Under the pieces are notes generated by a model, which was given only the letters and a program-made list of their open reading frames with translations, had not been told where the DNA came from and made no database searches. Shown in pieces: positions 8,191 to 64,000 of a stretch of DNA of 64,000 bases; positions within the stretch are counted from its first letter, which is position 1; every line of letters begins with the position of its first letter. Both the position numbers and the translations under genes were made by a program. Origin of the DNA: Terriglobales bacterium (lineage in GTDB: Bacteria > Acidobacteriota > Terriglobia > Terriglobales > Acidobacteriaceae). The DNA lies in the NCBI GenBank assembly GCA_035764005.1, contig DASTZZ010000031.1, positions 1 to 64,000 of the forward strand. Reading direction: 5' to 3'.

Positions 8191-10602
8191 ATGATTTTCC
8201 GCCGCAATCTTGTTGTTAACACGACGCTCGCGGTTTGTCAGGTGCTACTGCTGGTTCCAATCCTCGGTCTCACTACTGCTAGTGCAACTACAGCGTCCGA
8301 AATGCAAACTCCGCAGGAGCCGCAGGCCAAAAAGCCGGAACCCAAAGGCCGCGCGTCGGCGATGTTGAAATATCGCGGCGAGCCGGTCTACATCGTCGCA
8401 AATCAATTTGAGCAAAAAGGCAACACGTACATGCTGCACGGCGAGGCGCAGATCGATTTTCGCGACTACGTCCTCTATGCCGATGAGATCAGCTACAACC
8501 AGGACACCGGTGAATCGACCGCTACTGGCCATGTGAGGCTCGTCGGAGGGGACTACAACATCAATATGCAGGCCACGCACGCGGAGTACAACGTGGTCGA
8601 GGGTACGGGCAAGTTTTACGACGTGCACGGCACGACCGGCCTAAAGCTGGGTTCGCGGAAAGCACTGCTCACTACCTCCAACCCATTTACGTTTAGTGGA
8701 CGCGAAGTCGACAAAGTTGGACCGAACCGGTTCACGATTCAACATGGCAGCATTACCACCTGCGAACTTCCGCATCCGAAGTGGACCTTCAGCGCGGAGC
8801 GAGTGAACTTCGAGATCGGGGATCTCGCCAAGCTGCACAACTCCACTTTCCGCCTGATGCGAGTTCCCATTCTGTACTTTCCGTTTGTGGAACACCCGGT
8901 TGAGAATGTCGGCCGACAATCAGGCTTTCTGATTCCCAGCTTTGGGCAGTCTTCGGTAAAGGGCACCATCATCGGCGATTCCTATTTCTGGGCGATCAAT
9001 CGCAGCACCGATGCGACGATTGGACTGGAATATCTCTCCAAGCGCGGATATGCACAGCACGGGAATTTTCGCGAGTTAACCGGTCCAGACTCCTTCATTG
9101 CCGCTACGTACTTCGGAGTCGTCGATCGCGGAGCTGGTCCGGCTCACGTGGATCAGGGTGGACAGGATGTCCATCTGCAGGCTGAGCAGAATCTTCCGCA
9201 CAACATTCGCGGCGTTGCCAATATCGAGTACCTGAGCAGCTACTTATTCCGTCAGGCTTTTGCGGAAAACTTCACCGCCGCCGTCAACTCCGAGGTGAAG
9301 TCTGATGTGTTCGTCAACCGCGATTACAACGGTTACTTCATTGGCGCACTGGCGCAGCGCTACCAGAATTTTCAGAGCACGAACAAAGGTGACTTATTCA
9401 GCATCCTGCATGTACCCAGCATCGATGTGGATTCTGTCGATCGACAATTGTTCAACACTCCTTTCGTTGCCGGATTCGATGCTGAAGGCACCGGACTCTC
9501 TCGTCGCAGTCCGACATTCAGCTCGGCCAATCTCGTCGGGCGACTCGACGCGCACCCGCGTCTGGCTTTGCCCCTGTTCCTGCGTGGTTGGACGTTCCGC
9601 CCCTCGGTGGCCGTTCGCGATACTTATTACACCCAGCACAAAACTCCGGAGACTCCGTTCAGTATTGGGACCACGGTTAACGATCCGCTGAACAGGAAAG
9701 ATTTTGAAGGCGAACTGGAAATCCGTCCGCCGCGTCTGGAAAAAATCTATGAGAAGGGCATTTTCGGCAAAGCGCTGAAACACACCATTGAGCCGCGGAT
9801 CACGTACGACTACGTAAGCGGCATCAACAATTTCTTGAACGTCATTCGCTTCGACAGCTCCGATATTCTGAGCGACACGAATGAAGTCGAGTACGCGATT
9901 ACCAATCGCATCTACCTCAAACCGCGAAACGAAAATTGCGATCCGACGAAGGCGGATGGTTCGTGCACACGCAATGCCACGGAGTTGCTCAGTTGGGAAG
10001 TCGCGCAGAAATACTTCATCGATCCGTACTTTGGCGGTGCGGTTGTGCCCGGCGTACGCAATGTGCTGCAAACGACGGCAGAATTTTCGGGAATCGCGTT
10101 TCTTACCGAACCGCGGGTATTTTCTCCCGTCACGTCACGCTTACGAATTCACACGAGTCAGCGGACGGACCTGCAATGGCTGCTCGATTACGACATCAAG
10201 AAAGGCCAGATCAACGCCAGCAATGTTTTCTTCGACTACCATGTTGGGGCTTTTTTTGTGGGGGGCAATCATGCGCTTCTGCACACACCGGGCGAAGTTT
10301 TTCTCTCCAGTCCTTTGCCCACAATACTGAAGTTCAATCAGTTCCGCGTGACCAGCGGATTCGGCAATCCGTCGCGCCGTGGATTTTCATTGGCCGGAAA
10401 CGTCGGATATGACCTGAATCTCAGCTCAGTGCAGTACACGGCTGTTCAAAGTTCGTACAACTGGGATTGCTGCGGTTTGAACTTCGAATACCGGCGCTTC
10501 GTGCTGGGACCGGTGCGCAATGAGAGTCAATACAGGTTTGCTTTCAGCCTCGCCAACATCGGCACTTTTGGAAACCTGCGCCGACAGGAGCGCGTCTTTT
10601 AG
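8191..10602 (+). CDS. lptD: LPS-assembly outer-membrane protein LptD
   Basis: LptD inserts lipopolysaccharide into the outer leaflet of the outer membrane together with LptE. The signal peptide is about 1-30 (MIFRRNLVVNTTLAVCQVLL). An OstA/LptA-like beta-jellyroll follows (about 55-170, with YVLYADEISYNQDTGESTAT), then a large beta-barrel to the C-terminus. The adjacent cysteines in YNWDCCGLNFEYRR near the end correspond to the conserved C-terminal Cys pair of LptD. ATG 8191 is preferred over an in-frame GTG at 8170 because the signal peptide then begins normally. At 803 residues it is full length, and it implies a Gram-negative envelope. Confidence 0.9.
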   Translation: MIFRRNLVVNTTLAVCQVLLLVPILGLTTASATTASEMQTPQEPQAKKPEPKGRASAMLKYRGEPVYIVANQFEQKGNTYMLHGEAQIDFRDYVLYADEISYNQDTGESTATGHVRLVGGDYNINMQATHAEYNVVEGTGKFYDVHGTTGLKLGSRKALLTTSNPFTFSGREVDKVGPNRFTIQHGSITTCELPHPKWTFSAERVNFEIGDLAKLHNSTFRLMRVPILYFPFVEHPVENVGRQSGFLIPSFGQSSVKGTIIGDSYFWAINRSTDATIGLEYLSKRGYAQHGNFRELTGPDSFIAATYFGVVDRGAGPAHVDQGGQDVHLQAEQNLPHNIRGVANIEYLSSYLFRQAFAENFTAAVNSEVKSDVFVNRDYNGYFIGALAQRYQNFQSTNKGDLFSILHVPSIDVDSVDRQLFNTPFVAGFDAEGTGLSRRSPTFSSANLVGRLDAHPRLALPLFLRGWTFRPSVAVRDTYYTQHKTPETPFSIGTTVNDPLNRKDFEGELEIRPPRLEKIYEKGIFGKALKHTIEPRITYDYVSGINNFLNVIRFDSSDILSDTNEVEYAITNRIYLKPRNENCDPTKADGSCTRNATELLSWEVAQKYFIDPYFGGAVVPGVRNVLQTTAEFSGIAFLTEPRVFSPVTSRLRIHTSQRTDLQWLLDYDIKKGQINASNVFFDYHVGAFFVGGNHALLHTPGEVFLSSPLPTILKFNQFRVTSGFGNPSRRGFSLAGNVGYDLNLSSVQYTAVQSSYNWDCCGLNFEYRRFVLGPVRNESQYRFAFSLANIGTFGNLRRQERVF

Positions 10603-37498: not shown

Positions 37499-38980
37499 TC
37501 ATTCCAGGAGAGCGGGCGCCATTCGCGACGGCCCGACAGCTTTCTCCAGAGCACGCGCGACCTTCAGAATTAACTCCTCGCTGTTCGGCTGCCCGACAAC
37601 TTGCACGCCGATAGGCAGTCCTTCGGGAGAGACTCCAACGGGCACCACCACTGCCGGATTGCCAAGCAGATTGAACCACTGCGTGTAGCTCATTGCGTCC
37701 ATGTAAGAGACACTCCGGCCGCCGATCCGCCACTCGCGCTCTCCATGACGGAACGCCGGAACCGAACACACCGGGCAAATCAGAACAGGAATGTCATTCA
37801 TCTCACGCATCAGACGGAGCCGCAGTTCGTCGCGTCGGAACCATGCTGATAGCAAATCTTCTTTCGTCGGCGGACGATCAGAGTAGGTGAGGATGGTGCT
37901 GATTTCGTCTTCGCGACCTTTGAACTGCGGGGTGAGCAGCTCGGCAGCGAGTCGAACGAACAGTGTCCACCAATGCTCGCGAGCGTCGTCGAGGATATCG
38001 GGCAAAAAGGGCTTCACCCGAAATCCTGAGTTCTGCAGGAACGCGATGGCGGTGTGAACAGCGGCCTTGGTTTCCGGCGTAACAGGAGCGGATGGATGCT
38101 CCTCGAAATATCCAATCGTGATTCGCGGCAGTTCCTCCTGGGAAACTTCAGCTAAAGGGACGGGGGAAGCCATAGGATCGCCGGCGTCAAATCCGGCGAT
38201 CACGCGAAAGATGATTTCCAGATCTTCGACCCTGCGTGCCATCGGACCTACGACGCCGAGCAAAGCAAATGGCCCGCGGCTCTCGGGCCAGTGTCCCGTA
38301 ATGGGAATGCGGCCCGGAGTAGGTTTCAGTCCGCAGATTCCGCTGAAATGCGCTGGGACGCGGATGGAGCCGCCACCATCGCTACCAATGCCCGCAGCTG
38401 ATAATCCTGCAGAAATCGCTGCGGCTTCCCCACCGCTGGACCCGCCGGGAGTGCGCGAGAGCTCCCACGCGCTGTTCGTTCGTCCATACAGCGGATTATT
38501 CGTTTCATAAGCCATGAGCATTTCAGGAACATTCGTATTTCCCAAAATGATGGCTCCGGCCTGCTTGAGCCGCTGCACCAGAACAGCGTCTTCGCTCGCA
38601 ATGATGCGGGTGCGCGTTGGGCTGCCGCATTCGAATTTCAATCCGGCAACAGCAATCGAACTCTTAATGCTGATTGGGATTCCGTGCAATGGACGTAATT
38701 TCGCGTTACGCGCCACCGCCTTTTCCGCAGCCCGCGCCTCGGCGAGAGCAGCTTCTTGCCGGAGTTCAATGAATGCATTCAGCTTCGGGTTCAGCCGCTC
38801 AATTCGCGCATAATGCGCGCGCAGAAGTTCAACGGGCGAGAGCTTCTGCTCGCCTATGAACTGACTCATTTGCGTAATCGACAGTTGATGGAGCGAGGAA
38901 GTATCTAAAGAAGGAGAGCTCATGAAACTTGAAGGCTGAGTAGCTTTCATCTGATCGGGAGCTGCGCCAGATCGCGTCAC
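37499..38980 (-). CDS. Amidase-signature family amidase
   Basis: The amidase signature Ser-cisSer-Lys triad is recognisable: Lys in HGIPISIKSSIAVAG, the Gly/Ser loop TPGGSSGGEAAAISAG, and the nucleophile region IGSDGGGSIRVPAHFSGICG. At 493 residues (or 474 from ATG 38923) it is full length. The family includes GatA-like and acylamide hydrolases; absence of gatB/gatC nearby argues against GatA. A GTG at 38980 overlaps the trpG stop as GTGA, so coupling to trpG is possible. The true start could be 38980, 38950 or 38923. Confidence 0.85.
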   Translation of the reverse strand: MTRSGAAPDQMKATQPSSFMSSPSLDTSSLHQLSITQMSQFIGEQKLSPVELLRAHYARIERLNPKLNAFIELRQEAALAEARAAEKAVARNAKLRPLHGIPISIKSSIAVAGLKFECGSPTRTRIIASEDAVLVQRLKQAGAIILGNTNVPEMLMAYETNNPLYGRTNSAWELSRTPGGSSGGEAAAISAGLSAAGIGSDGGGSIRVPAHFSGICGLKPTPGRIPITGHWPESRGPFALLGVVGPMARRVEDLEIIFRVIAGFDAGDPMASPVPLAEVSQEELPRITIGYFEEHPSAPVTPETKAAVHTAIAFLQNSGFRVKPFLPDILDDAREHWWTLFVRLAAELLTPQFKGREDEISTILTYSDRPPTKEDLLSAWFRRDELRLRLMREMNDIPVLICPVCSVPAFRHGEREWRIGGRSVSYMDAMSYTQWFNLLGNPAVVVPVGVSPEGLPIGVQVVGQPNSEELILKVARALEKAVGPSRMAPALLE

Positions 38981-39546
38981 TGGAGAAAGTTTCGGATAAG
39001 CTGCGGCCCATGCGGCGTCAGCACGCTTTCCGGGTGGAACTGCACCCCTTCGACAGCTAGCTTTCGGTGGCGCAAACCCATGATCACCGTCCTGCCGTTC
39101 TCTTCACTGCGCGCCGAAATCTCGAGTTCATCGGGAAGGCTCTTCTCTTCCACGATCAGTGAGTGATAGCGATTCGCGACCATCGGAGAGTCCAGCCCTT
39201 TGAATATCGTGCGCCCATCGTGCTCCACCAAGCTAGTTTTGCCGTGCATGATGCGCTCGGAGCGAATCACGCGTCCGCCAAACGCTGCGCCGATGGCCTG
39301 ATGCCCGAGACATACTCCCAAAATAGGAACTTGTCCGGCGAGTTTCTGAATCAGTTCAACCGTGATGCCCGCCTCGTTCGGCGTGCAGGGGCCAGGAGAG
39401 ATGACGATCTTGCGAGGCTGCAGTTCCCGTATTTCCTCGACCGTAACCTGATCGTTTCGGCGAACCTGCACCTCTTCTCCCGTCTCACCGATGTACTGCA
39501 CGAGATTGAAGGTGAAGGAATCGTAATTGTCGAGAACGAAAATCAT
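38977..39546 (-). CDS. trpG: Anthranilate/aminodeoxychorismate synthase glutaminase subunit
   Basis: This class I glutamine amidotransferase supplies ammonia to TrpE (or PabB). It starts MIFVLDNYDSFTFNLVQYIG, has the oxyanion loop SPGPCTPNEAG, the nucleophile Cys79 in GVCLGHQAIG, and the His/Glu pair in VEGVQFHPESVL. At 189 residues it is full length. It directly follows trpE, so anthranilate synthase is the main role; in many bacteria the same subunit also serves p-aminobenzoate synthesis. Confidence 0.95.
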   Translation of the reverse strand: MIFVLDNYDSFTFNLVQYIGETGEEVQVRRNDQVTVEEIRELQPRKIVISPGPCTPNEAGITVELIQKLAGQVPILGVCLGHQAIGAAFGGRVIRSERIMHGKTSLVEHDGRTIFKGLDSPMVANRYHSLIVEEKSLPDELEISARSEENGRTVIMGLRHRKLAVEGVQFHPESVLTPHGPQLIRNFLQ

Positions 39547-60577: not shown

Positions 60578-61090
60578 CTACTTCCACAGTCCTTCTTCCT
60601 CGGGTTCGATCCAAGGCGCTCTGCTTTCTTCATCGATTGACCAAGCTCCGAGCTTACCGTCGTATGTGAACAGCCATCTGGATAGAATGTCTCTTCCAAT
60701 CAGGCACTGAACGGGTTGTTCGGGCAGGGCACAGCAGAGCACCTGCATAACCTCAATCGTTGCCAGTTTGGAATTTGGAAATCGGACAGAAGCAACGTGT
60801 ACTCCGACCTCATTTGTGCCACCTACTCGAGTGACGATTCTGCGATCCACAAGCGGTAAGGACAATTTCGCAACTGCTTCCGGACTCAGGACGGTACGAG
60901 CTGCACCGGTGTCAATCAGCCCCGGCATTTTGGAGGTAACGTGGCTTTTTCTACTGGTGCCTACGATTGGAAGACCGACTTCAATCTCAAGACGAGGGCC
61001 ATAGTTCTGCAGGTCGGGAGGATCGCGACGTGGCGACGAGTACGTCGGCACGTCAAAACACGGAAAAGACTGGCTCTTGGGCCACCACAC
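60578..61090 (-). CDS. Retropepsin-like aspartic protease
   Basis: The 170-residue protein has the retropepsin active site KMPGLIDTGAARTVLSP (DTGA), the flap-like GGTNEVGVHVASVRFPNSK and the C-terminal hydrophobic Gly motif QCLIGRDILSRW (IGRD). One domain of this type works as a homodimer. The GTG start overlaps the upstream DUF5678 gene by 38 bases in another frame. It ends near tRNA-Arg. The substrate is unknown; the pair with a small DUF5678 protein suggests joint function. Confidence 0.8.
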   Translation of the reverse strand: MWWPKSQSFPCFDVPTYSSPRRDPPDLQNYGPRLEIEVGLPIVGTSRKSHVTSKMPGLIDTGAARTVLSPEAVAKLSLPLVDRRIVTRVGGTNEVGVHVASVRFPNSKLATIEVMQVLCCALPEQPVQCLIGRDILSRWLFTYDGKLGAWSIDEESRAPWIEPEEEGLWK

Positions 61091-61286
61091 GCTTTACCAG
61101 GAAGTCTGCATCCATGCCGTATTTCTCAACCCCAGCGCGGTATGCCGCTTGAAACTCTGCGAAAAAGCCGAGCGGGCTTTTGCCTTTAATTACCACAAAT
61201 TCGCCACGGTGATTGTTGAGCCACTCGGCTTTGTGCGTTTCGTACAGGTCCAATTCAACGCTGAGACGAACTGAAGCAGTTGCCAT
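61053..61286 (-). CDS. DUF5678-like small protein
   Basis: The 77-residue protein has the pattern LYETHKAEWLNNHRGEFVVI, KGKSPLGFFAEFQAAYRAG and VEKYGMDADFLVKRVVAQEP, matching a small family I know as DUF5678, often encoded next to retropepsin-like proteases. Function is unknown. Its start is 111 bases from the divergent HTH gene, and three palindromic operators lie between them, so it may be under the same regulator. Confidence 0.75.
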   Translation of the reverse strand: MATASVRLSVELDLYETHKAEWLNNHRGEFVVIKGKSPLGFFAEFQAAYRAGVEKYGMDADFLVKRVVAQEPVFSVF

Positions 61287-61341
61287 GGGTTGCTACGGTT
61301 GAGATGCGATTAACACCAACTCGAGACGTCGAAAATCATAA

Positions 61342-61395
61342 CAAATATATTTGCAAGCGGAACAAATATATTTGTTACTCTTCCAAATACATTTG
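61342..61395. promoter_or_regulatory. Three phased palindromic operators
   Basis: CAAATATATTTG at 61342-61353, again CAAATATATTTG at 61363-61374, and CAAATACATTTG at 61384-61395. The first two are perfect palindromes and the third has one mismatch. The start-to-start distance is exactly 21 bp twice, two helical turns, so bound dimers would line up on one face. The last ends 2 bases before the HTH gene ATG at 61398. Confidence 0.8.
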
Positions 61396-61397
61396 CT

Positions 61398-61799
61398 ATG
61401 CCGAGATCAGCGTCGGATCCCGAATTGAAACGCGAGTTTTCGAAACACATCAAGAACCTTCTTGGTCGTCAAAGTGCTCAGAAGATCGCGTCGATATTGG
61501 GCGTAAAACCGCAAATGATCTACAACTATCGTGATTCGAAGTGCGCTCCGTCCGCAGAAGTGATCCGCAGAGCAATGGAAGGGTTCCCTGGACTTTCGCT
61601 CAGCTATCGTGGCAAAACCCTGAGGCTACAAGATTTCTCAACCACCCCCAAGAGGCCATTGCCGCGCCGTGAGGACTTGCAGTATGAACTGTGGGACGCA
61701 ATCAGGACGTTGAGGCCTGACGCTATTCACATAGAGATCTTGAAGAAGGAAATCGCGTCAGTACAGCTCGGCGTCAAAATCTCCTTTGGAAATCGTTAG
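61398..61799 (+). CDS. HTH DNA-binding protein (probable autorepressor)
   Basis: The 133-residue protein starts MPRSASDPELKREFSKHIKN; the HTH lies about 18-50 (SAQKIASILGVKPQMIYNYR). The middle (SLSYRGKTLRLQDFSTTPKR) and C-terminal part (about 90-133, RREDLQYELWDAIRTLRP) look like an oligomerisation region; I do not recognise the family of that half. Three operator copies sit just before its ATG, leaving no room for a normal ribosome site, so the first operator steps may overlap the promoter. It probably represses itself and the divergent DUF5678-protease pair. Confidence 0.75.
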   Translation: MPRSASDPELKREFSKHIKNLLGRQSAQKIASILGVKPQMIYNYRDSKCAPSAEVIRRAMEGFPGLSLSYRGKTLRLQDFSTTPKRPLPRREDLQYELWDAIRTLRPDAIHIEILKKEIASVQLGVKISFGNR

Positions 61800-61819: not shown

Positions 61820-62035
61820 CTAGGACGGCGATACGAAGTCGTACATGAGTCGCAGGAGCTCACGCGATAACTCCGCCTCGTCCAGCTCGGGGTGCCGGCT
61901 GCGTAGTCCAGCAAGCGCTACGTTCCGCATCGATTCGCTCATCTCAAGCGCCAAGCGAACGCGCTGTTCCGGAGTCATGCGGCGAAAGATTTCGTCTTGA
62001 ATCGCAGCCGCTTCGGGATTGGTGTCTTAGAGCAT
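61820..62035 (-). pseudogene. Small helical protein gene with stop at codon 3
   Basis: On the minus strand ATG CTC TAA at 62035-62027 is followed in frame by an open stretch (DTNPEAAAIQDEIFRRMTPE, then QRVRLALEMSESMRNVALAG and LRSRHPELDEAELSRELLRL) to TAG at 61822-61820. The amphipathic helices and the internal RRMTPEQRVRLALEMSES and RHPE motifs look like a conserved small protein that normally starts before DTNP. An internal ATG at 61978 could still make 52 residues. A C-to-T change (CAA to TAA) would explain the stop. Confidence 0.55.
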
Positions 62036-63077: not shown

Positions 63078-64000
63078 TCAAATCCGCATGGGCATGATGA
63101 TGTAACGATACTTGTACTCGTCGCCACTGCCCTCCGGACGTAATTGCCCGGCTGACTGCGAGTCTTTGAACTCCAGCCGCACTTCGCCGGAATTGGTGAC
63201 CTTCAGGAAGTCGAGCAGGTACTGCGAGTTGAATCCGACGATGAGCGGATCCGATTTGTAGCTGGTTTCGATCGTGTCTTCCGATTCGCCGGCATCAGTT
63301 GAGGATGACGAGAGTCGAAGTTCATCTTTATCGAGTTTTATGCGGATCGCGCCCGAGCGCTCGTCAGCGAATTGCGCTACGCGCTGGATGGCGCCGAGCA
63401 GATCGGCGCAGCTTACGACTACGGCTTTGTTGTTGTCGCGCGGGAGGACAGCTTCGTAGTTAGGGAATTGTCCGGTGAGCTGACGGGAGGTAAGCAACCG
63501 TCCGCCGATACGGAAGAAGAGCGTCGAATCGTCTTTCGCGAATTCAATGAACTCTTCATCGGTCTGATCGATCAGCGAGCGCAGCTCGTTCATTGCCTTG
63601 CGCGGGATGAGCGTCTTCATCTCACCGTTCACGCCGGGGAAGTCGGCCTTGGTTTCAATGTGAGCAAGACGATGCCCGTCGGTTGCGACCATCGCGATCG
63701 ACTCTGCCTTGATCACCATCAGCGCGCCATTGAGCGTGTAACGCGATTCTTCGTTCGAGATCGCGAAAACAGTCTTTGCGATCAGATTGCGCAGAACGGC
63801 AACCGGAAGTTTTGTTGCCGAGCCGGAAGGGAACGTCGGCAACGCGGGGAAATTCGCGCGCGCCATGCCGACCATTTTCGTATTCGATCGTCCCGCACGA
63901 ATCTGCACCCAGTGGTTTTCCATCTGCTTGATGGTGACCTGGCCCTCGGGCAACAGCTTCACGTAGTCGTACAGCTTGCGCGCTGGGATCGTGCATGAGC
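63078..64000 (-). CDS. dnaN: DNA polymerase III beta subunit (sliding clamp), 3' part
   Basis: The frame is open from the window edge to 63078. Signatures are TIPARKLYDYVKLLPEGQV, FPALPTFP, AISNEESRYTLNGALMVIKA, MVATDGHRLAHI, FPNYEAVLPRD and the C-terminal YIIMPMRI that binds the hydrophobic-pocket partners. The clamp encircles DNA and tethers polymerase III. About 305 residues are visible; the N-terminal domain lies beyond the window. dnaN is usually near the replication origin, so oriC may be close to the right of this window; that is an inference. Confidence 0.97.
   Translation of the reverse strand, partial: SCTIPARKLYDYVKLLPEGQVTIKQMENHWVQIRAGRSNTKMVGMARANFPALPTFPSGSATKLPVAVLRNLIAKTVFAISNEESRYTLNGALMVIKAESIAMVATDGHRLAHIETKADFPGVNGEMKTLIPRKAMNELRSLIDQTDEEFIEFAKDDSTLFFRIGGRLLTSRQLTGQFPNYEAVLPRDNNKAVVVSCADLLGAIQRVAQFADERSGAIRIKLDKDELRLSSSSTDAGESEDTIETSYKSDPLIVGFNSQYLLDFLKVTNSGEVRLEFKDSQSAGQLRPEGSGDEYKYRYIIMPMRI

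Follow-up and report, generated by a model that had tools for sequence, protein, structure and literature searches.

A putative three-box operator array between a small helix-turn-helix regulator gene and a divergent retropepsin-like protease pair in a Terriglobales bacterium

A short gap between two divergent transcription units in a Terriglobales bacterium holds three palindromic boxes, flanked on one side by a gene for a small helix-turn-helix (HTH) protein and on the other by a pair of genes for a small protein and a retropepsin-like protease; the arrangement raises the question of which protein reads the boxes and which of the flanking genes they serve. The window, as used here, is the whole stretch of DNA that was analyzed, 64,000 nucleotides of contig DASTZZ010000031.1 (assembly GCA_035764005.1). 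Comparison with related loci suggests that the boxes are probably operators through which the encoded HTH protein controls its own gene; that the same protein also controls the divergent pair is the favored reading of the gap, held with somewhat less assurance. The features concerned are as follows.

60578 to 61051, minus strand: clan AA aspartic protease, retropepsin-like, with LIDTGA and LIGRD motifs and a likely GTG start at 61051.
61053 to 61286, minus strand: small 77-aa protein, DUF5678-like, first gene of the pair, below the Pfam cutoff.
61287 to 61397, no strand: divergent intergenic region with the array, presumably holding both promoters; 111 bp, 63% A+T.
61310 to 61339, plus strand: promoter-like TTAACA-18-AATCAT (9/12), shortly before box 1; chance expectation, 0.4.
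61335 to 61343, minus strand: possible extended -10 for the pair, TGTTATGAT, overlapping box 1; found by eye and unreported by the promoter scan.
61342 to 61353, no strand: operator box 1, CAAATATATTTG, a perfect palindrome; counterpart CAAATATATTGT at 3947-3958 of L055.
61363 to 61374, no strand: operator box 2, CAAATATATTTG; counterpart CAAATATATTTT at 3970-3981 of L055.
61384 to 61395, no strand: operator box 3, CAAATACATTTG, one mismatch; counterpart CAAATAAATTTG at 3988-3999 of L055.
61398 to 61799, plus strand: gene for the 133-aa HTH regulator; the predicted model shows an XRE-like HTH and a C-terminal part predicted with low confidence.
63078 to 63998: DnaN-like gene, named by eye, 1.3 kb from the HTH gene.

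The original prediction, made from the sequence of the window, described two perfect boxes and one near-perfect box at 61342, 61363 and 61384, in an exact 21-bp period, between the HTH gene and the divergent pair. All of this was confirmed: the third box carries a single mismatch, the two spacings are 21 and 21 bp, and the array occupies the 111-bp gap. The palindrome of box 2 (61363-61374) reaches 16 bp (AACAAATATATTTGTT), and the HTH ATG lies 2 bp beyond the end of box 3. Four matches with up to two mismatches occur in the whole window, the fourth being a two-mismatch site at 8399 (0.99 expected; 3 of 100 shuffles reach four); by this count alone the excess is modest, and the rarity lies in the clustering. 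At up to one mismatch, the 5.1-Mb source assembly (97.5% complete, 131 contigs) contains the three array boxes and one site within a 200-aa ORF on a different contig, with no further target sites. The pattern CAAATNNATTTG-N4..14-CAAATNNATTTG is unique to the array locus in the same assembly, where the reversed control pattern gives no match, and none of 2,000 dinucleotide shuffles of the gap produced three sites, even at three mismatches. The window has 31 perfect 12-bp palindromes, and only that of the box recurs within 100 bp. We consider the array real because its clustering is rare in the assembly, in the pattern scan and in the gap shuffles.

A single close homolog of the HTH protein was found, in the Terriglobia acidobacterium "Candidatus Angelobacter sp. 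Gp1-AA117" (G432; contig QHVI01000045.1), and none among 99 other relatives. Thirteen of 399 class genomes, including the source genome, matched at E 0.01, with G432 close (59%) and the rest at E 2.7e-5 or worse; among 396 phylum genomes only the source genome and a weak match in G146 (8e-5) were returned, and a scan by pattern across 84,980 species genomes, able to detect near relatives only, gave one locus, that of Gp1-AA117. Conservation of the box sequence found in the window therefore refers to two genomes. The G432 cassette is 58 to 59% identical to that of the window in the HTH protein, 65% in the small protein and 53% in the retropepsin. The cassette is flanked by RuvA- and MnmE-like genes (named by eye) in G432 and by the DnaN-like gene and a tRNA-Arg in the window; its retention in another neighborhood indicates that genes and boxes travel together. 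Homologs of the HTH gene do not consistently lack the motif, since the G432 gap holds three matching boxes (CAAATATATTGT, CAAATATATTTT and CAAATAAATTTG), the last of them 1 bp before the ATG. Three sites at up to three mismatches are not rare by count in the 3.4-kb G432 locus (19 of 200 shuffles), while their clustering in the gap was reproduced in 0 of 2,000 shuffles. A two-box pattern covering both versions was present in 2 of 240 family genomes, exactly the two with the window-type HTH protein, and absent from the other 238. The predicted recognition-helix segments of the two proteins are one residue apart (PQMIYNYRD in the window, PQMVYNYRD in G432).

Three boxes and their placement at the start codon are thus common to the window and G432; the phasing differs. 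The original prediction read the 21-bp period as a sign of cooperative binding on one face of the DNA, a part that was not supported. The DNA helical repeat is 10.5 bp per turn, and with spacings of 23 and 18 bp the middle box of G432 appears rotated well off the face it has in the window; exact two-turn phasing as a design point was therefore rejected. Distant members of the HTH family, considered below, have spacings of 17/22, 17/29, 15/17 and 14/16 bp. A constant distance between the outer boxes was likewise rejected, as it is 42 bp in the window and 41 bp in G432 but 39 bp in L075.

What kind of protein might occupy the boxes is suggested by a structure model built from two sequences. It has four helices in residues 8 to 62 (8-22, 27-34, 38-45 and 53-62), with block pLDDT values of 85 to 91 over residues 11 to 50 and a poorly predicted C-terminal half; by position, helix 38-45 is the predicted recognition helix. 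Foldseek returned mainly XRE regulators (HigA2, HipB, C.Kpn2I and P22 c2, with C.BclI and C.AhdI also present), all of them weak matches (best E 0.039); the enzyme MPnS and a designed protein also ranked near the top. The window protein matched nothing in Pfam above cutoff, including HTH_3 (best YdaS, 12.4 bits; cutoff, 30), and a PDB sequence search gave nothing better than E 0.4; its HTH domain weakly matches the phage HTH family phrog_3642 (E 3.5e-4). The G432 homolog reaches 15.7 bits for HTH_3, below the cutoff of 23, and the distant relatives L036/L083 and L076 exceed the Pfam cutoff for HTH_3 or HTH_31. Downstream of the HTH gene, a 52-aa ORF at 61820-61978 (minus strand) matches an Rv0078B-related antitoxin family at 22.9 bits, below the cutoff of 27.1.

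Repeated palindromic sites stand directly upstream of the HTH protein's own gene. In the mechanism we propose, HTH homodimers would occupy the three boxes as operators of the adjoining right-hand gene, and their occupancy would block the HTH promoter and start region, giving autorepression; the small-protein/retropepsin operon would probably be repressed too, because the array fills the common gap. That the HTH protein binds the boxes, and that it represses, we infer. A Shine-Dalgarno match is missing before the HTH ATG in the window, as it is before the regulator starts at 7 of 9 loci, with the two remaining loci matching GTGA only; this would fit an HTH transcript that is leaderless or nearly so. 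Small-protein starts have a Shine-Dalgarno match at 7 of 11 loci, counting L025 at a manually chosen start further in; the window's own has none.

Whether the boxes belong with the HTH gene or with the protease can be judged from distant members of the HTH family. A three-sequence profile matched 11 of 240 family genomes, and 10 of the 11 rows were scored for an array, a partial one (L080) being left unscored; the score takes three non-overlapping 14-mers resembling a near-palindrome and sets each gap against 300 shuffled versions of itself. Eight of the ten loci reached P ≤0.01 (the window, G432, L075 to L079 and L082), the arrays of L075 to L079 having been noticed by eye before the score was written; L081 (P 0.79) and L083 (P 0.19) failed. 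The control regions, 110 bp upstream of 49 other long window ORFs that are unverified as genes and matched in A+T only through each region's own shuffles, reached P ≤0.01 once and P ≤0.02 three times (Fisher P 1.8e-7 for 8/10 against 1/49 at P ≤0.01). The one control region at P ≤0.01 belongs to the ORF at 38977-39546 (minus strand) and may be chance. Among small-protein loci without a type A or type B regulator (defined below), 1 of the 15 tested (of 24) reached P ≤0.01.

With a wider profile, matches came from 25 of 250 class genomes, many of them through the HTH domain alone. This profile gave 26 rows, 4 of which repeat known loci; 8 of the remaining 22 were given to the array test (L087, L088, L091, L094, L089, L092 and L097, with L090, which has no usable ORF, unscored), and the other 14, HTH-domain or otherwise partial matches, were left out of it. 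Four of the five near-full-length members added in this way reached P ≤0.02, against 3 of the 49 control ORFs: L087 (P 0.020), L088 (0.010, or 0.013 with an alternative start), L091 (0.003) and L094 (0.003, a second overlapping ORF with P 0.05 having been dropped). Of the three copies scored at L088 and at L094, only two look convincing. The fifth, L089 (P 0.216), has three boxes by eye, the first of them mostly outside the scored 110 bp. The partial members L092 (P 0.156) and L097 (P 0.100) failed the test. In the distant homolog from G146 (L057), three boxes abut the ATG, and the protease pair is not in view.

Box sequences differ between clades and partly follow them. The box TCTATTnnAATAGA occurs in 4 of 6 nuclease-linked loci (L075, L076, L077 and L087), ATAACTTAAGTTGC is common to L083 and L088, which are members from different families, and at the distant HTH gene of L094 (G212) TCAAATATATTTGA, which contains the exact window 12-mer, occurs twice, 29 bp apart.

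The partner genes are more varied still. Among 15 HTH members, the divergent partner is the protease pair in four (the window, L013, L082 and L083), an RNase H-like nuclease in six, a SocA-like protein in one and another or unclear gene in four (L081, L088, L089 and L091). The nuclease assignment rests on a long ORF starting MLxxTFxHIPGxG that lies divergent to the HTH gene in L075 to L079 and L087, most of these gaps having box arrays; the one such ORF scanned is RNase_H_2 (PF13482, E 3.9e-34), and the other five were called by likeness. In L094 the divergent gene encodes a SocA_Panacea protein. The arrays thus appear to track the HTH family and not the protease. Because they accompany the HTH family whatever the partner, autoregulation is our primary reading and control of the protease a secondary one; of the compact switch on a protease module that was originally proposed, the regulatory array stands, being kept in G432, and its protease-specific scope does not.

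The alternative that survives best is that the array serves the HTH gene alone, with the pair a passive neighbor under its own control. This has its core in common with the explanation we prefer and differs about the pair only; we regard it as possible but doubtful. It would account for arrays before HTH genes with other divergent partners (the RNase H-like nuclease, the SocA-like protein and others), for the position of box 3 at the HTH end of the gap, where 1 to 2 bp separate it from the HTH start codon in the two copies of the cassette, and for the 19 of 30 small-protein loci whose stretch shows no recognized regulator of types A to C, some of these loci being cut by contig ends. It accounts less readily for the occurrence of the pair together with this HTH type in two genomes with different surroundings, and for box 1, which is 55 bp from the start codon of the pair and overlaps its possible extended -10 (by eye).

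The pair itself is only in part what had been predicted, a DUF5678 protein with a retropepsin. The retropepsin assignment is sound: the window protein scores 41 bits against PF13975 (cutoff, 28.2) and carries LIDTGA, and its weak PDB sequence matches comprise Ddi1 domains together with one UBA-domain protein (best E 0.0054). Its likely GTG start follows the small gene's TGA by one base (the ORF as called mechanically extends to 61090), and the retropepsin counterparts in L025 and L027 begin directly after the small gene. The DUF5678 assignment did not stand; the 77-aa protein scores 12.9 bits against PF18929 (cutoff, 23.2), its homologs in G432 and G547 have no DUF5678 match at E 0.1, and "DUF5678-like" is therefore a working name only. 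Its predicted fold has a mean pLDDT of 69 and no useful PDB match (best E 1.4).

The small protein was found at 30 loci in 28 of 300 family genomes, and 26 of the 30 stretches have a retropepsin match. The regulator beside it varies: a type A HTH protein at two loci, a type B HTH protein at four (one, L049, cut by a contig end), a type C protein at five and none recognized at 19. Type C is a small basic protein unrelated to the HTH types, with no Pfam match for the one scanned. In L037, L040, L042, L043 and L044 the pair is divergent to the type C protein (MSPREKHIPDDAQRT...), and the gap keeps the site GCACTATAACGTAATAATG or a variant of it; this site, conserved in all five loci, is not significantly palindromic (P 0.18 to 0.95). 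Before other regulators, the palindrome P value was 0.002 at L027 and L045 and 0.25 at L036. A tree of 26 of the 30 retropepsins, omitting L028, L029, L033 and L038 (no active-site motif in the stretch and no tblastn retropepsin match), recovers the type C loci as a single clade (100/100) and joins both type A rows to one of type B (98/96). The tree fits replacement of one regulator by another, without proving it.

A DnaN-like gene lies near the small protein, mostly with a retropepsin, at 10 of the 30 loci besides the window (L027, L028, L032, L034, L035, L037, L039, L041, L045 and L049); the window's own dnaN falls just outside its small-protein stretch. None of five same-genus genomes encodes the HTH protein, the retropepsin or the small protein, and in these five dnaN is present with none of the window neighborhood in the 1.5 to 4.1 kb downstream of it. 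An island or insertion at dnaN was considered and set aside, as the five genomes demonstrate absence there and not insertion.

These observations can be drawn together in a wider reading, which we put forward tentatively. Acidobacteria may harbor an undescribed family of small HTH proteins, mostly with clade-specific arrays of two to three boxes, encoded divergently to varied effectors: the small-protein/retropepsin pair, the RNase H-like nuclease and the SocA-like protein. The pair, in turn, may swap regulators (the type A HTH protein, the type B HTH protein and the unrelated small basic protein with its conserved site), so that the regulator and its sites would form an exchangeable "regulatory head." It is possible, as part of the same tentative reading, that the effectors under such a system are harmful and that its role is akin to that of stress or defense modules.

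Other explanations concern what the boxes do or what binds them. We think it unlikely that the HTH protein activates, or first activates and then represses as its concentration rises, in the manner of the C proteins, with the boxes recruiting RNA polymerase. Tandem palindromes before a small XRE-like gene without a Shine-Dalgarno match do resemble C-protein genes; against this, box 3 sits right at the start codon, where blocking is favored, and restriction-modification genes are absent among the scanned neighboring ORFs. Less probable still is that the repeats are bound by another regulator or are -10-like A+T-rich elements with no dedicated protein. The box cores hold TATATT or TACATT, near the -10 hexamer, in a gap of high A+T content, but the gap shuffles never reproduce the array, and the two-box pattern, unique in the assembly, is found in 240 family genomes only in the two with this HTH protein. 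That the three 21-bp direct repeats are iterons or a replication or partition element, as the DnaN-like gene near the HTH gene and at 10 of 30 small-protein loci might suggest, is scarcely tenable, given that no replication initiator is present among the seven neighboring proteins scanned, that the G432 cassette and its boxes lie beside RuvA-/MnmE-like genes (by eye) and not dnaN, and that outside G000 and G432 the two-box pattern occurs in none of 240 family genomes.

Taken alone, the locus is of an ordinary kind in a new place; a family whose boxes and partners change is more interesting. To our knowledge, the transcriptional control of bacterial retropepsin-like proteases has been little studied. 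An operator array beside a retropepsin gives a direct handle on it, as regulator, sites and target could be rebuilt in Escherichia coli. If the wider pattern is true, related regulators with different boxes offer a natural series for how this HTH family reads DNA, and point to a nuclease module that is controlled in the same manner. Neither the HTH family nor its varying set of partner genes appears to have been described, and the suggestion that the module is new agrees with our literature search, in which no paper on this cassette was found.

How, then, does the locus compare with known systems? Several classes were considered. A phage or plasmid origin was not favored: tblastn with the HTH or small protein gave no match in phage (50,697 records) or plasmid records, the HTH protein had no tblastn match in viral contigs, the exact array is absent from these contigs, and no phage family was found among seven ORFs scanned with Pfam (58.5-63.0 kb); the weak phrog_3642 match remains. 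A type II toxin-antitoxin system of the HigA/HipB kind, with a cotranscribed partner, does not fit, as the window genes are divergent. Rfam at the gathering threshold returned only a tRNA between 60400 and 62700. The retropepsin weakly matches the PADLOC model PDC-M08B (E 3.8e-5; 6e-6 for the G432 protein), which has no curated cutoff, and the shared protease fold alone may explain the match. At E 0.1 no PADLOC model picked up the small protein, and a further PDC-M08 B model, PDLC04401, found nothing in 5 genomes nor in 14 controls. We take the PDC-M08B match as a lead toward defense, no more.

Closer likenesses are found in two classes of regulators. The cI/cro region of the Staphylococcus aureus phage Phi11, of lambdoid type, likewise carries three operators of related sequence between closely spaced divergent genes, with an HTH gene on one side (PMC3991615); both divergent genes of the lambdoid cI/cro arrangement encode repressors, whereas the partner in the window is a small DUF5678-like protein with a retropepsin. 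C proteins are small XRE-type proteins with palindromic boxes directly upstream and no Shine-Dalgarno match, and leaderless transcripts for several of their genes and both positive and negative autoregulation are reported (PMC4824078); C.Esp1396I is a C protein with three operators (PMC3758141). In contrast, the window HTH protein has 133 aa with a C-terminal part, the box sequences differ, and no methyltransferase or endonuclease gene was found by Pfam in the seven main ORFs of 58.5-63.0 kb. By analogy, the array resembles a three-operator divergent switch or C-protein control yet would be a member of neither, because the divergent gene is no repressor and the scanned neighbors include no restriction-modification gene.

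On the protease side, few bacterial retropepsin-like proteases have been characterized, as stated in PMC11957791 and PMC12239564. RimB and RloA, the latter being the name given to retropepsin-like enzymes of Pseudomonas (PMC12239564), resemble the window protein in being retropepsin-type aspartic proteases encoded in an operon (PMC11957791, PMC12239564). No ATP-grasp, transglutaminase or EAL partner is present among the scanned neighbors of the window retropepsin, which instead has the 77-aa protein directly upstream and the divergent HTH gene beyond it.
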